In this document: in pieces, positions 43,447 to 51,627 of the stretch
Position numbering within the stretch: the stretch's first letter is position 1
Layout of the letters: the number at the start of each line of letters is the position of its first letter
Source: Bdellovibrio bacteriovorus
GTDB lineage: Bacteria > Bdellovibrionota > Bdellovibrionia > Bdellovibrionales > Bdellovibrionaceae
Direction of reading: 5' to 3'
Assembly (NCBI RefSeq): GCF_002208115.1
Contig: NZ_CP020946.1
Location: forward strand, 2,418,001 to 2,482,000
Length of the DNA: 64,000 nt
The notes under the pieces: model-generated
The model's input: the letters and a program-made list of their open reading frames with translations, nothing else
What the model was told of the DNA's origin: nothing
Database searches by the model: none
Position numbers and translations under genes: made by a program

Positions 43447-43475
43447 TTGACCTGAGCGGGTACTTCGCCCATAAC
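43447..43475 (+). promoter_or_regulatory. Predicted promoter for the riboswitch-controlled receptor
   Basis: TTGACC (43447-43452), 17 bases, then CATAAC (43470-43475). The predicted transcription start near 43482 fits the 5' end of the riboswitch. Confidence 0.55.
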
Positions 43476-43483
43476 GCTGACCT

Positions 43484-43563
43484 GACGCTAGGGGTGTTGG
43501 TGAACTCACCGACTGAGAATAACCCTTTGAACCTGATAGAGATAATGCTCGCGCAGGGAAGCA
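43484..43563 (+). promoter_or_regulatory. TPP (thiamin pyrophosphate) riboswitch
   Basis: The conserved THI-element segments appear in order. They are GGGGTG (43491-43496), CTGAGA (43513-43518), ACCCTTTGAACCTGAT (43522-43537), GATAATGC (43541-43548) and CAGGGAA (43554-43560), with GCT/AGC closing pairs. This is the TPP aptamer. It ends about 70 bases before the start codon of the TonB-dependent receptor, leaving room for an expression platform. High TPP should lower receptor synthesis. Confidence 0.93.
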
Positions 43564-43631
43564 AGAATAGAAAGATCCGGCTCTGTTTCCATAAGCCCCT
43601 TTCTGTCATGCCGACCTGCCAAAGGAAGGCC

Positions 43632-45728
43632 ATGAAAAAGTACTTATCAATCCTCAACGCCATGACAGTTCTGCTGACCAGTCCGGCTGTTTATGCACAA
43701 AATCTCCCGACAGAGATCAATACCATCACTGTGCAGGATGATCAGGTTCAGGAACCGCTGGAGGCCTTTGGCTTTCCCGAAATTCCGGCGCAGAATCTGC
43801 CTCTTTCGACCTCGCAGATCAGCGACCGGACTTTGCGTGAAAACCGCATTCACCGCCTGTCGGAGATTACTTTGATTGAAGCCTCGGTGACGGACAGCTA
43901 CAACGCTTCGGGATACTGGGACTATCTTTCCATCCGCGGTTTCACCCTGGATAATCGCGCAAACTTCCTGCGTGAAGGACTTCCCATCAACGCCCAGACC
44001 TCCATTCCTTTGGAAAACAAAGAACGCCTTGAAGTGCTTAAAGGTCTCAATGGCCTGCAAACCGGCGCGAGCTCTCCGGGGGGCATGGTCAACTATGTGA
44101 TCAAACGCCCGACCCCGCGCCAGCAATTCCTGCTGGAAACTGAAGTCGGCAGCTATGGCAACTGGCTGATTGCGGCAGATGCCGGTGGTCCTGTCAGGGG
44201 CCATGACCAGTTCGGTTATCGCCTGAATGTGGCGCATGAACAACTGAGCCCCGCAGTCGAAGACAGCAAAGGCGAACGAAATGTTCTGGCCCTGGCCAAC
44301 AGTTGGCGTCTTTCAGAAACTCAATTGCTTGAGTCGGACATCGAATGGTCCAAAAAATCCCAGCCGACCCAGGCGGCTTTCAGTCTGCTGGGAAGTGATC
44401 TGCCGCAGGTGACGGATCCCCGTTTGAACCTGAACAATCAAAGCTGGTCCCAACCGGTGGTTTTCACCGGCTTGACCGGCAGCCTGAAATACACTCACCG
44501 CTTCAGTCAAAACCTGATCTGGCAGACAACGGCGGGCGCGCAGGAACTGCACACCGATGACCGCCTGGCTTATCCGTTTGGCTGTTCGGCGGAAAACAAC
44601 TATGACCGCTATTGCTCTGACGGCACTTTTGACATGTATGACTTCCGAAGTGAAAATGAACGTCGCAGCACTCAGGCCATAAAAACATCCTTGCAGATGA
44701 AGGGTGTGACCGGCCCGGTTTCCCACGACATCAATGTCGGTTATCTGGGGCATGTGTCCCGAGAGCGCTATGCCAAGCAGGCTTACAATCCGGTGGGTGT
44801 CGGAAATGTGCAAGGCACCGCGAAACTCCCGGCCGACCCCGCCCTGACTGATGAAAACACCAACCGGGATTCTGAAGTGAACGAAATTTTTGCTTTTGAT
44901 TCCGCTCATTGGGGTTCCTGGGGAGCGTGGCTGGGACTTCGTTTCAGTGATGTCCATCGCAGCAGTGTTCGCACAGACGCCTCGCGCGCCACGGATTACC
45001 GCGAAAATTTCTTGCTGCCGTGGATGGCGCTTTCTTATCAATTCCCGGCATGGATGACCTATGCCAGCTATGGTGAAGGGGTTGAAACTTATGTCACCCC
45101 GAACCGCAGTGGCTATACCAACCCCGGACAGTTTGTCCCGGATGTGATCAGCAGGCAGATCGAAGTCGGCGCCCGCGGCGGCGAAACTGTGACTTGGAAC
45201 CTTGCGGCCTTCCAGATCGAACGCCCGCAGGTGGAAGATCAACGACCGGACTATAAAATTGACGGCAGCAGCCGCCATCAGGGTGTGGAGGCAGAACTTG
45301 GCGGAGAAGTCGGCCGACTGCAATGGACAGCTTCAGCGATGTGGCTGAAAGCGCGCCGTCTGGACAGCACGCTGAATCCTGCAATCAATGACCGGCGCCC
45401 GACGAATCTGCCCGAGCACACTTTGCGTGCCCATGTGAATTATCTGATCCCTGGAGTTCAGGGCCTGTCAGTGAATTCCCGGGTTTCCTATGAAGGTGAA
45501 CGTGCCGTGACGGCCGATAATTCCCTGATGCTGTCCGCGTGGACTCGCTGGGATGCAGGCGCTTCTTATGAGTTTGGGAAGAAAGATGAAAAAACGGTGG
45601 TGCGATTGGCCGTTGAAAATCTGACGGATGAAAAGTACTGGAAGGAATCCCCTACCCAATACGGGCACATCTATCTGTACCCGGGCGAAGTCCGCAGCGT
45701 CTTTTTAACACTGCAGACTGAACTTTAA
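43632..45728 (+). CDS. TonB-dependent outer-membrane receptor under TPP riboswitch control (predicted thiamin uptake)
   Basis: This is a 698-residue outer-membrane receptor. The signal peptide ends VYA, and INTITVQDD looks like a TonB box. The plug domain reads LSIRGFTLDNR, GLNGLQTGASSPGGMVNYVIKRP, and the beta-barrel ends in a Leu C-terminal strand. By sequence it falls in the siderophore-receptor class, but the TPP riboswitch upstream predicts import of thiamin or a phosphate ester. Start at 43632 follows AAGGAAGG. A longer in-frame start would run through the riboswitch and was rejected. No exbBD or thi gene is near. Confidence 0.9.
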   Translation: MKKYLSILNAMTVLLTSPAVYAQNLPTEINTITVQDDQVQEPLEAFGFPEIPAQNLPLSTSQISDRTLRENRIHRLSEITLIEASVTDSYNASGYWDYLSIRGFTLDNRANFLREGLPINAQTSIPLENKERLEVLKGLNGLQTGASSPGGMVNYVIKRPTPRQQFLLETEVGSYGNWLIAADAGGPVRGHDQFGYRLNVAHEQLSPAVEDSKGERNVLALANSWRLSETQLLESDIEWSKKSQPTQAAFSLLGSDLPQVTDPRLNLNNQSWSQPVVFTGLTGSLKYTHRFSQNLIWQTTAGAQELHTDDRLAYPFGCSAENNYDRYCSDGTFDMYDFRSENERRSTQAIKTSLQMKGVTGPVSHDINVGYLGHVSRERYAKQAYNPVGVGNVQGTAKLPADPALTDENTNRDSEVNEIFAFDSAHWGSWGAWLGLRFSDVHRSSVRTDASRATDYRENFLLPWMALSYQFPAWMTYASYGEGVETYVTPNRSGYTNPGQFVPDVISRQIEVGARGGETVTWNLAAFQIERPQVEDQRPDYKIDGSSRHQGVEAELGGEVGRLQWTASAMWLKARRLDSTLNPAINDRRPTNLPEHTLRAHVNYLIPGVQGLSVNSRVSYEGERAVTADNSLMLSAWTRWDAGASYEFGKKDEKTVVRLAVENLTDEKYWKESPTQYGHIYLYPGEVRSVFLTLQTEL

Positions 45729-45734
45729 GACGGA

Positions 45735-46586
45735 TTACTGACGCTCGGTCGTAAAGACGGGGGCGTCAGCACCCATCGCCGCGGCTTCTTCAAGAATGAA
45801 AGTCTTGAACATAGTGGCGTTCGTGTATTCACCGAAATGACGGCAGTCTGGCGCCAGATCGTGCGGTCCGCGGGTGATCCCGACAACCACAAGTCCTTTG
45901 GAAGTTTCCAGATAGGCCGGACCACCGGAATCACCAGAACATGCCCCTTTGGCATTGTTCTGATCGGTCACCAGAATGGATTCCCACAATTTAGCCAGCG
46001 GCACACGCACAAAGTTCAGACCGGTTGCTGGAGTCGGATTATCAATTTCATTCAGCAATCCATAGCCGGCAAGCAACAAAGTCTCGCCCGCTTTCAGCTC
46101 CACGGACTCATCCAAAACTGGAACTGGAACGGCGTTTTCCGGAGCATCCAACAACAACTTGATCAAACCCACGTCGTTACGTCCTGTCACCGGGAAACCG
46201 TTGTCATCATACACCAGGTGATAATCTTTATGGGTTTCGTATTCTGCCACTCGCAAAAGCTTTGTTTCATCAATCGTCGTCGGAAGAACTTCACCCATAT
46301 GAACAAAGATCTCTGCGCCCTGAAGATCCACCAGACAATGAGCCGCAGTCAGAACCAGATTCTTTGAAATCAATGTGCCCGTGCAGATAGAGTAAGGTAT
46401 TCCCTGATAGTTATAAATCAAAGACACGGTGGACGCCGTCACGGGATTCGTGGCATCGGCTTTTTCGCCGCCGATAATGGAGGTCTCTTGACCGTTCATT
46501 TCGACACTATTGGTTTTTTCATTCTTCGTACAAGCAACAAGGGACAAAAGCAGCAAAGATGACAGCAACAGCTTAGAATTCAACAC
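45735..46586 (-). CDS. Trypsin-like serine protease (peptidase S1) lipoprotein
   Basis: This is a 283-residue exported protease. GTG (46586) lies six bases after AGGGGAG, and the lipobox is SLVAC. The catalytic chain begins at IIGGEKA (about residue 37), which is the classical zymogen cleavage N-terminus. The triad is His83 (TAAHC), Asp138 (RNDVGLIKL) and Ser220 (GDSGGP). The specificity pocket cannot be read surely. Convergent with the TonB receptor, six bases apart. A prey-digesting role is inference. Confidence 0.93.
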   Translation of the reverse strand: MLNSKLLLSSLLLLSLVACTKNEKTNSVEMNGQETSIIGGEKADATNPVTASTVSLIYNYQGIPYSICTGTLISKNLVLTAAHCLVDLQGAEIFVHMGEVLPTTIDETKLLRVAEYETHKDYHLVYDDNGFPVTGRNDVGLIKLLLDAPENAVPVPVLDESVELKAGETLLLAGYGLLNEIDNPTPATGLNFVRVPLAKLWESILVTDQNNAKGACSGDSGGPAYLETSKGLVVVGITRGPHDLAPDCRHFGEYTNATMFKTFILEEAAAMGADAPVFTTERQ

Positions 46587-46702
46587 AGGGACTCCCCTTA
46601 CAACGGCGTGAATCGCCGGTGGGAAATCTATCAAAGAGTTATGAAAACTCCTAGGAATTGATCAGTGTCAAATCGATGGACAGTATTAATTTCAGTTAAT
46701 GA

Positions 46703-50025: not shown

Positions 50026-51627
50026 ATGAAAACACTCTCCGAACACATCGAAAATGCTTTTGACCTGTCCTATCTGAATTTCCCCAAATGTCCGCCAACG
50101 GACATCAAAACCATCGGCATTTTGGGCGGAGGCACCGCCGGCTATCTGGCGGCCCTGGCATTGGCAAAGTACCATCCGGAAGTGGAAGTCACCGTCATTG
50201 AATCCAGCAAGATCCCGGTCATTGGCGTGGGCGAATCCACCACCACTGAGATTGTACCCTTCCTGCACCGCGGACTCGAGATCGATCCGGTGGAGTTTTT
50301 CCGCGAAGTGGAACCAACCCTGAAGTTTGGTATTCACTTTGAATGGGGCTGCCCGGGTGATTACAAATTCAACTTCAGCTTCTTCGCCGGTCACCAGTAC
50401 GAATCTTACTACTACGAAAACGATATCAAAAATTCCAACTGGCCATCCGTTCTGATGAACGCCAACAAGATCCCGGTCATTCGCAACAAAAACGGTTCTT
50501 TGACGTCCTTCCTGCCAAGCATCCCGTTCTCTTACCACATCGACAACAAGAACCTGATCCGCTTCCTTAACAAAGAAGTCAAAAGCCGTGGCATCGAGAT
50601 CGTTGATGCCGAAGTTCATGAAGCCAAACTGGACGCCCAGGGCAATGTCGCTTCCCTGGAATCCAAAGAAGGTCACAGCCTTTCTTATGACTTGTACATT
50701 GACTGTTCCGGCTTCCGTTCCAAACTGCTGGGCCAGACCCTCAAGACCGAGTTCATGCCGTTCACCGACACTTTGATCACCGACCGTGCACTGACCTTCG
50801 ATTTGCCGAACAAAGACGTGGTTGATTGTTACACTTCTGTGATCACCATGAATAACGGCTGGTGCTGGAAGATTCCAATGCGCACGGAAGATCACTATGG
50901 TTATGTATTCTCGTCCAAATTCTGTGACGAAGAAACAGCCCTGGCCGAAGCCCGCGCGCGCTTCGGTCACTTTGAAAAATACAAAATGGTTGAATTCCGT
51001 TCCGGCCGACACAAGCAGGCCTGGGTGAAAAACGTGTTTTCTCTGGGGAATGCTTATGGCTTCATCGAGCCTTTGGAATCCACGGCCATTCAGACCGCCG
51101 TTCACAGCATCAATGTTCTGTGCCGTCTGATGCCAAAGTCCCTGGAAGATCAGATTTCCATCAACGGTATCAACAATGAAATTGCCGTGACCTGGGACAC
51201 CTTCCGCTGGTTCGTGGGCATGCACTACAAGTTCAACAAAAAACTGGATACACCATTCTGGAAACACTGCCGTGAAAAAACCAATATCGGCAACGCACAG
51301 ACCGTGGTGGATCTGTTTAACCAAAGACCTCCGCTGAGTGCCGGAAACTTCGGATCCAATTCCCAGTTCACCGCCACGGAAGCTTTGGTGTTTAACAGCT
51401 ACAGCTATGACACTTTGATCTTTGGGCAAAAAGAGGTTCACAAACCTCTGACCGCACCGGAAATGAGCAAAGAAGAATACTTCAGCAAGCTAAAGTCCTA
51501 TGAAGAGCTGACCAGCCGTTCACTGTCTTTGTTTGAGTTGTTCAAAGGAGATCATCTGATGGAAGATGGAATTCTGGAGCAGCTCTTCAATGACACTGAC
51601 ACCTGGATCATGGAAGCCGACGTCTAA
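50026..51627 (+). CDS. Flavin-dependent halogenase (tryptophan-halogenase family)
   Basis: This is a 533-residue FADH2-dependent halogenase-like enzyme. It has the N-terminal FAD motif GILGGGTAGY, the active-site lysine candidate Lys100 (EPTLKFGIHF), the hallmark W-x-W-x-I-P (GWCWKIP, 279-284) and the EPLESTAI stretch (Glu351) that positions the substrate. These point to chlorination or bromination of an aromatic. No flavin reductase or biosynthetic cluster is near. No Shine-Dalgarno is clear. The stop interlocks with the convergent DTW gene (CTAA). Confidence 0.9.
   Translation: MKTLSEHIENAFDLSYLNFPKCPPTDIKTIGILGGGTAGYLAALALAKYHPEVEVTVIESSKIPVIGVGESTTTEIVPFLHRGLEIDPVEFFREVEPTLKFGIHFEWGCPGDYKFNFSFFAGHQYESYYYENDIKNSNWPSVLMNANKIPVIRNKNGSLTSFLPSIPFSYHIDNKNLIRFLNKEVKSRGIEIVDAEVHEAKLDAQGNVASLESKEGHSLSYDLYIDCSGFRSKLLGQTLKTEFMPFTDTLITDRALTFDLPNKDVVDCYTSVITMNNGWCWKIPMRTEDHYGYVFSSKFCDEETALAEARARFGHFEKYKMVEFRSGRHKQAWVKNVFSLGNAYGFIEPLESTAIQTAVHSINVLCRLMPKSLEDQISINGINNEIAVTWDTFRWFVGMHYKFNKKLDTPFWKHCREKTNIGNAQTVVDLFNQRPPLSAGNFGSNSQFTATEALVFNSYSYDTLIFGQKEVHKPLTAPEMSKEEYFSKLKSYEELTSRSLSLFELFKGDHLMEDGILEQLFNDTDTWIMEADV

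Follow-up and report, generated by a model that had tools for sequence, protein, structure and literature searches.

A predicted TPP riboswitch in front of a TonB-dependent receptor points to probable vitamin B1 import in Bdellovibrio

Thiamin receptors and TPP riboswitches described so far

Comparative genomics led to the proposal that some TonB-dependent receptors take up thiamin (Rodionov 2002, cited in PMC2771747 and PMC3400609). The sections of PMC2771747 used here describe the assignment as still to be proven and distribute the predicted receptors over three distinct regions of sequence, the thiamin-receptor label thus sitting on more than one lineage; in excerpts of PMC10881298, omr1 genes lie near TPP riboswitches in SAR86 and Flavobacteriales. 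The receptors of these studies (PMC2771747, PMC3400609, and PMC10881298) were predicted from a TPP riboswitch or from a PnuT neighbourhood, and the riboswitch is what they have in common with the Bdellovibrio receptor described below, a genus that the excerpts leave unnamed. The proposal gained genetic backing from OMthi (BT2390) of Bacteroides thetaiotaomicron, where deletion in a biosynthesis-minus background led to an approximately tenfold higher thiamin requirement (PMC5613172). By that description OMthi resembles our receptor in being a TonB-dependent outer-membrane receptor under a TPP riboswitch, whereas its partner is PnuT, which is not found in the Bdellovibrio class, and its host is a thiamin prototroph. 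A TonB-dependent receptor-like protein in a TPP-riboswitch operon of Variovorax, a predicted thiamin transporter (PMC10409787), is likewise a TonB receptor under TPP control and comes from the Comamonadaceae. That gene lies in a biosynthetic operon, in contrast to the Variovorax receptor of our own searches (L111), which lies beside tRNA genes behind an aptamer of its own, and the two may therefore be different genes. No TPP-regulated transporters were found in the Burkholderia and Ralstonia sets of PMC3766115.

The TPP riboswitches of E. coli (thiC, thiM, and tbpA) share their aptamer core with Bdellovibrio and make translational control the expected mode (tbpA, in excerpts of PMC11487190); unlike them, about half of the Bdellovibrio loci apparently use the 3' strand of the aptamer as Shine-Dalgarno sequence, the rest having a separate leader. 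As for B. bacteriovorus itself, the sections of PMC7529429 used here report an incomplete thiamin pathway and name no dedicated B1 uptake route. We found no report of a Bdellovibrio TPP riboswitch in the open-licence literature, an earlier report elsewhere being possible, and TPP goes unmentioned in the main text of an RNA-seq paper on Bdellovibrio (PMC3627812). An earlier note on this DNA had held that TonB receptors under TPP riboswitches are known in other groups, and BT2390, omr1, and the comparative-genomics predictions bear this out; what appears to be new is their wider reach and an apparent transfer between phyla.

Aptamer, leader, and receptor gene in the window

In the window (the whole 64,000-nt stretch of DNA analysed), RF00059, the TPP riboswitch, was the sole Rfam family above threshold. 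The covariance search that the earlier note had proposed matched positions 43480–43576 of the + strand over the full length of the model (64.8 bits; E 1.9e-10; Rfam gathering cut-off 54.3 bits), and when the same model was run on the entire 3.77 Mb genome, the copy before the receptor was the single TPP riboswitch. The motifs CTAGGGG (43488), CTGAGA (43513), GAACCTGA (43529), and GCAGGGAAGC (43553) were located, in agreement with the earlier reading that all conserved TPP aptamer segments are present at 43484–43563; the optional P3a stem is absent. Among related loci the P3 helix showed changes on both sides at three pairs, i.e., compensatory changes, while P2, P4, and P5 are nearly invariant and their covariation is thus uninformative. 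By its score and by P3 covariation, the predicted aptamer belongs to RF00059.

Just upstream lies a predicted sigma-70-type promoter (43447–43475, + strand) with a -35 element TTGACC (43447–43452), a 17-base spacer, and a -10 element CATAAC (43470–43475). A consensus promoter scan of the window did not report it because the -10 element lacks the final T. The pattern TTGACN-17/18-NATAAN stands at the equivalent place in 14 of 19 orthologous Bdellovibrio loci (shuffles: 0.1%), indicating that the well-spaced promoter claimed previously is present in sequence and conserved in position.

The leader and presumed expression platform extends from the aptamer to the start codon (43577–43631, + strand). 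Our site scan reported no terminator-like site on the + strand of this interval, and folding predicted a hairpin that sequesters the Shine-Dalgarno region (AAAGGAAGG; 43621–43629, + strand) and the AUG by pairing. A 12-base leader element, GCCGACCTGCCA (43610–43621, + strand), which alignment showed to be common to Burkholderiales receptors, occurs once in the window (0.01 expected), and its CCTGC is antisense to GCAGG in the 3' strand of aptamer P4. Leaders of the genus follow two arrangements: a separate leader of 40–80 bases (10 of 19 loci, including the window), or an AUG close to the aptamer (9 of 19), where GGGAAG or a variant in the aptamer 3' strand ends up ~3–5 bases 5' of the AUG and is therefore the likely Shine-Dalgarno sequence. 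This latter placement fits direct translational control in the nine loci. We also folded leaders from both phyla (that of Bdellovibrio and that of the Burkholderiales; see below) with the aptamer free or locked. In 16 of 19 leaders, opening the ribosome-binding region with the aptamer locked was more difficult than in 85% or more of the shuffled leaders, and the free-to-locked difference exceeded shuffles in five (L012, L016, L018, L103, and L111; L106 was borderline). In L018 and L019, stretches of 9 bases are antisense to the 3' strand of the aptamer. The leader in the window, compared in the same way with free and locked aptamer against shuffles, gave no TPP-dependent switch. By analogy and from the nine loci with the direct arrangement, translational repression by TPP is the best reading of the window leader, and TPP would probably repress the receptor by hiding its ribosome-binding site.

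The receptor gene (43632–45728, + strand) encodes a TonB-dependent outer-membrane receptor of 698 aa, for which we propose import of thiamin or thiamin phosphates. It starts 55 bases past the Rfam match and 68 bases past the aptamer end given previously, close to the ~70 bases stated there. A longer in-frame ORF from 43407 is an unlikely gene start and was set aside because translation would cross the aptamer. The protein scored 264.7 bits (cut-off 223.5) against TIGR01783 "TonB-dependent siderophore receptor," a subfamily of sequence and not of tested substrate, and matched Pfam Plug PF07715; an AlphaFold model from 16 sequences is a beta-barrel (mean pLDDT 78; pTM 0.80). The Plug match and the predicted barrel place it in the TonB-dependent transporter family. 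Using the model as query, Foldseek returned FemA (TM 0.80), BauA, FoxA, and FhuA at TM ~0.8 and 18–22% identity, and comparison with PDB entries by sequence likewise led to siderophore receptors. As the earlier note foresaw, homology alone would thus yield a siderophore-receptor label, since TIGR01783, PDB, and Foldseek neighbours are all of that type; such structural neighbours are expected from the fold and uninformative on substrate. Reading the sequence, we noticed a candidate TonB box, EINTITVQ (residues 28–35; 43713–43736, + strand), with a similar stretch in the receptor alignment. By eye, we also noticed an ORF for a trypsin-like serine protease convergent to the receptor (45735–46634, - strand) and, farther along the window, one resembling a flavin-dependent tryptophan halogenase (50026–51627).

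Linkage of riboswitch and receptor in two phyla

TPP riboswitch matches were present in 35 of 144 genomes of the class, one per genome. The window's genus accounts for 19 of these matches among its 24 genomes, and in all 19 the next gene was a receptor of the window's type, with several different gene neighbourhoods on the upstream side of the pair. Full-length relatives of the receptor were found in 20 genomes of the class, all belonging to the Bdellovibrio genus, and the riboswitch lies in front in 19 of them; the exception, G021, has the receptor directly behind another gene, with no aptamer. That this linkage persists across differing neighbourhoods argues for an association that is old and kept, and not incidental. 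Riboswitch and promoter are both missing at the exceptional locus (L070; sequence same as L098), where control seems to have been lost naturally.

Among the remaining families of the class, TPP riboswitches are mostly followed by B1 genes, namely ThiM-ThiE, ThiC, ThiB-P(-Q), or YkoE-ABC. A few loci depart from this: in G072 the riboswitch lies before a different TonB receptor (L122:2090-4123) with no meaningful similarity to that of the window (BLASTP E 0.018), apparently a second, independent recruitment in the same order; in G070 (56.7 bits) it precedes a protein of 139 aa that looks secreted and matches nothing in Pfam (L123:1607-2023); and in G140 it precedes a sodium/solute symporter (L124:3147-4598; TIGR00813 below cut-off), a candidate transporter of B1 or a precursor. 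In G054 (L119) and G045 (L030), a YkoE-type transporter operon behind the riboswitch is divergent from a short TPK-like gene. A partial receptor relative (49%) lies at the end of a Bacteriovoracaceae MAG contig (L110).

Starting from the receptor alignment, we then looked for relatives across bacterial and archaeal genomes by two conserved peptide patterns, a basis on which further relatives may exist. Burkholderiales-type relatives with 40–51% identity came from Roseateles, Mitsuaria, Variovorax, Xenophilus, a Ramlibacter MAG, and others, joined by one "Methylotenera" MAG. A TPP aptamer lies just upstream in 12 of 12: nine score above the Rfam cut-off, two with long P5 insertions fall below it (41.5 and 35.6 bits), and at the Variovorax locus the conserved aptamer blocks were recognised by eye. 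On the 3' side, 11 of the 12 loci have a tRNA gene shortly after the receptor; in Xenophilus the distance is ~2 kb. By this TPP riboswitch in front of it, conserved across species, the receptor fits the thiamin TonB receptors of the OMthi or omr1 kind.

The 3' half of the window aptamer is identical to Burkholderiales aptamers at 29 of 32 positions, vs. 18–26 of 32 for comparable other TPP aptamers of the Bdellovibrionia, and the leader element GCCGACCTGCC(A), just 5' of the start codon, is common to the window, the two loci closest to it, and almost all Burkholderiales loci. The outgroup-rooted receptor tree gave Bdellovibrio as one clade (99/100) within a Burkholderiales grade, the branches that nest it there being weak (88/67 and 93/90). 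The best matches in a plasmid search for the receptor were all below 30% identity. Since aptamer details and the 12-base leader element are common to both phyla, riboswitch and receptor are likely to have moved horizontally as a pair, and the comparison suggests that the pair originated in the Burkholderiales. In the same tree the receptor of the "Methylotenera" MAG (L112) falls inside the Roseateles branch; this MAG contig is probably mis-binned.

Thiamin metabolism and the imported substrate

The gene absences reported here rest on family searches for ThiC, ThiE, ThiK, ThiM, TPK, PnuC/PnuT, and YkoE. In this genome, these searches gave no match for ThiC, TPK, ThiM, PnuC/PnuT, or YkoE, and PnuT was not found in the class; we therefore rejected PnuT and YkoE as inner-membrane partners of the receptor. 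The ThiE-like matches, in a frame of 355 aa, were weak and did not reach the cut-off; they were not accepted as a true ThiE, nor were the ThiE-like matches across the genus (mostly ~20–25 bits, in frames of 330–400 aa). Matches to ThiK, weak APH-type ones among them, were far below cut-off. The search for missing biosynthesis genes that the earlier note had advised thus left ThiC, ThiE, ThiM, and TPK undetected in the genome. ThiL is present (264 bits; cut-off 184).

An inner-membrane transporter is encoded in the gene order endonuclease III - DoxX - ThiB - ThiP - ThiQ (L114). Against the subfamily of thiamine substrate-binding proteins (cut-off 93.4), ThiB scored 211 bits, though it stayed below the stricter thiB equivalog cut-off. 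Among solved structures it is closest by far to 2qry, the thiamine-binding protein of E. coli (E 1.3e-51; next match 4.9e-9); ThiP and ThiQ score under their own cut-offs. A ThiB-subfamily gene above cut-off was found in 24 of 24 genomes of the genus. By these matches, the partner B1 transporter in the inner membrane would be this ThiBPQ-type operon. Two genomes of another family in the same order (G136 and G127) have the orthologous DoxX-ThiB-ThiP-ThiQ operon with a TPP riboswitch between DoxX and ThiB (identity of G136 to the window genome: ThiB 39%, ThiP 33%, DoxX 48%). The DoxX-ThiB junction of the window genome has no riboswitch, the single genomic TPP switch being on the receptor, so the previous suggestion of a transporter under the same riboswitch did not hold: ThiBPQ is present but without it. 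Tentatively, a riboswitch-receptor cassette may have moved between the Burkholderiales and the ancestor of Bdellovibrio, ThiBPQ then being without a riboswitch, with the B1 supply regulated solely at the outer membrane and ready-made TMP or TPP coming from prey.

The covariance match, the linkage in two phyla, the undetected ThiC, ThiE, ThiM, and TPK, and the presence of ThiB-P-Q and ThiL fit a B1 importer in a B1 auxotroph, and we put at roughly 85% the probability that the receptor brings vitamin B1 (thiamin and/or its mono- or diphosphate) across the outer membrane under repression by TPP. What the receptor carries, in which direction and at which level (translation) TPP acts and, reasonably, that the B1 comes from prey are our inferences. 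At low TPP in the predator the aptamer would be unbound, the ribosome-binding site of the leader open, and the receptor made; TonB-driven uptake through the receptor would deliver B1 to ThiB in the periplasm and on to ThiP/ThiQ in the inner membrane, and ThiL would convert TMP to TPP after uptake. At high TPP the folded aptamer would leave the ribosome-binding site paired and receptor synthesis off. Such a receptor would tie predator and prey together nutritionally in a concrete and testable way, and the aptamer and leader are a candidate for a native Bdellovibrio control element that can be tuned by thiamin.

Taken at its family name, the protein would instead be a siderophore or heme receptor, with the TPP riboswitch playing an indirect or accidental role, as its score above the TIGR01783 cut-off and its closest structures (FemA, BauA, FoxA, and FhuA) would have it. 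We consider this improbable: aptamer and receptor remain together across two phyla and differing gene neighbourhoods, TIGR01783 is defined by sequence and not by tested substrate, and a scan of the window for the E. coli-type Fur box, allowing up to 3 mismatches, gave no match, although the Fur site of the genus may differ. The "siderophore receptors" of Bdellovibrio, Roseateles, Variovorax, Xenophilus, and relatives would be relabelled probable B1 importers. TPP riboswitches elsewhere control precursor transporters (PMC3766115), but import of HMP or thiazole for salvage is very unlikely here, in a genome without ThiE to join both halves and without ThiM.

Within B1 import, a narrower form deserves more weight, though we would give it somewhat less than an even chance: the receptor may mainly take phosphorylated B1 (TMP or TPP) that dying prey release, rather than free thiamin, with ThiBPQ passing it on and ThiL finishing TMP. 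With no TPK found, TMP and TPP are the B1 forms usable by the detected enzymes, ThiL being present and TPK, ThiE, ThiM, and ThiK giving nothing above cut-off; moreover, the NCBIfam name of the E. coli-type ThiP is thiamine/thiamine pyrophosphate permease. Receptor and ThiL also co-occur in the genus (19 genomes with both, 3 with neither, 1 with the receptor only [G007], and 1 with ThiL only; Fisher p 0.008, uncorrected for relatedness). Conversely, an unrecognised thiamin kinase, e.g., one of the weak APH-type matches, would make free thiamin usable, and free thiamin may serve the Burkholderiales hosts. The earlier proposal of a likely thiamin importer thus stands as regards B1 import, which linkage and gene content support; the receptor may import TMP or TPP and not free thiamin, given that ThiL is present and that no TPK, ThiE, or clear ThiK was found. 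In three genomes of the same genus (G014, G017, and G025), where riboswitch, receptor, and ThiL are all absent, the ThiB-subfamily gene is retained.
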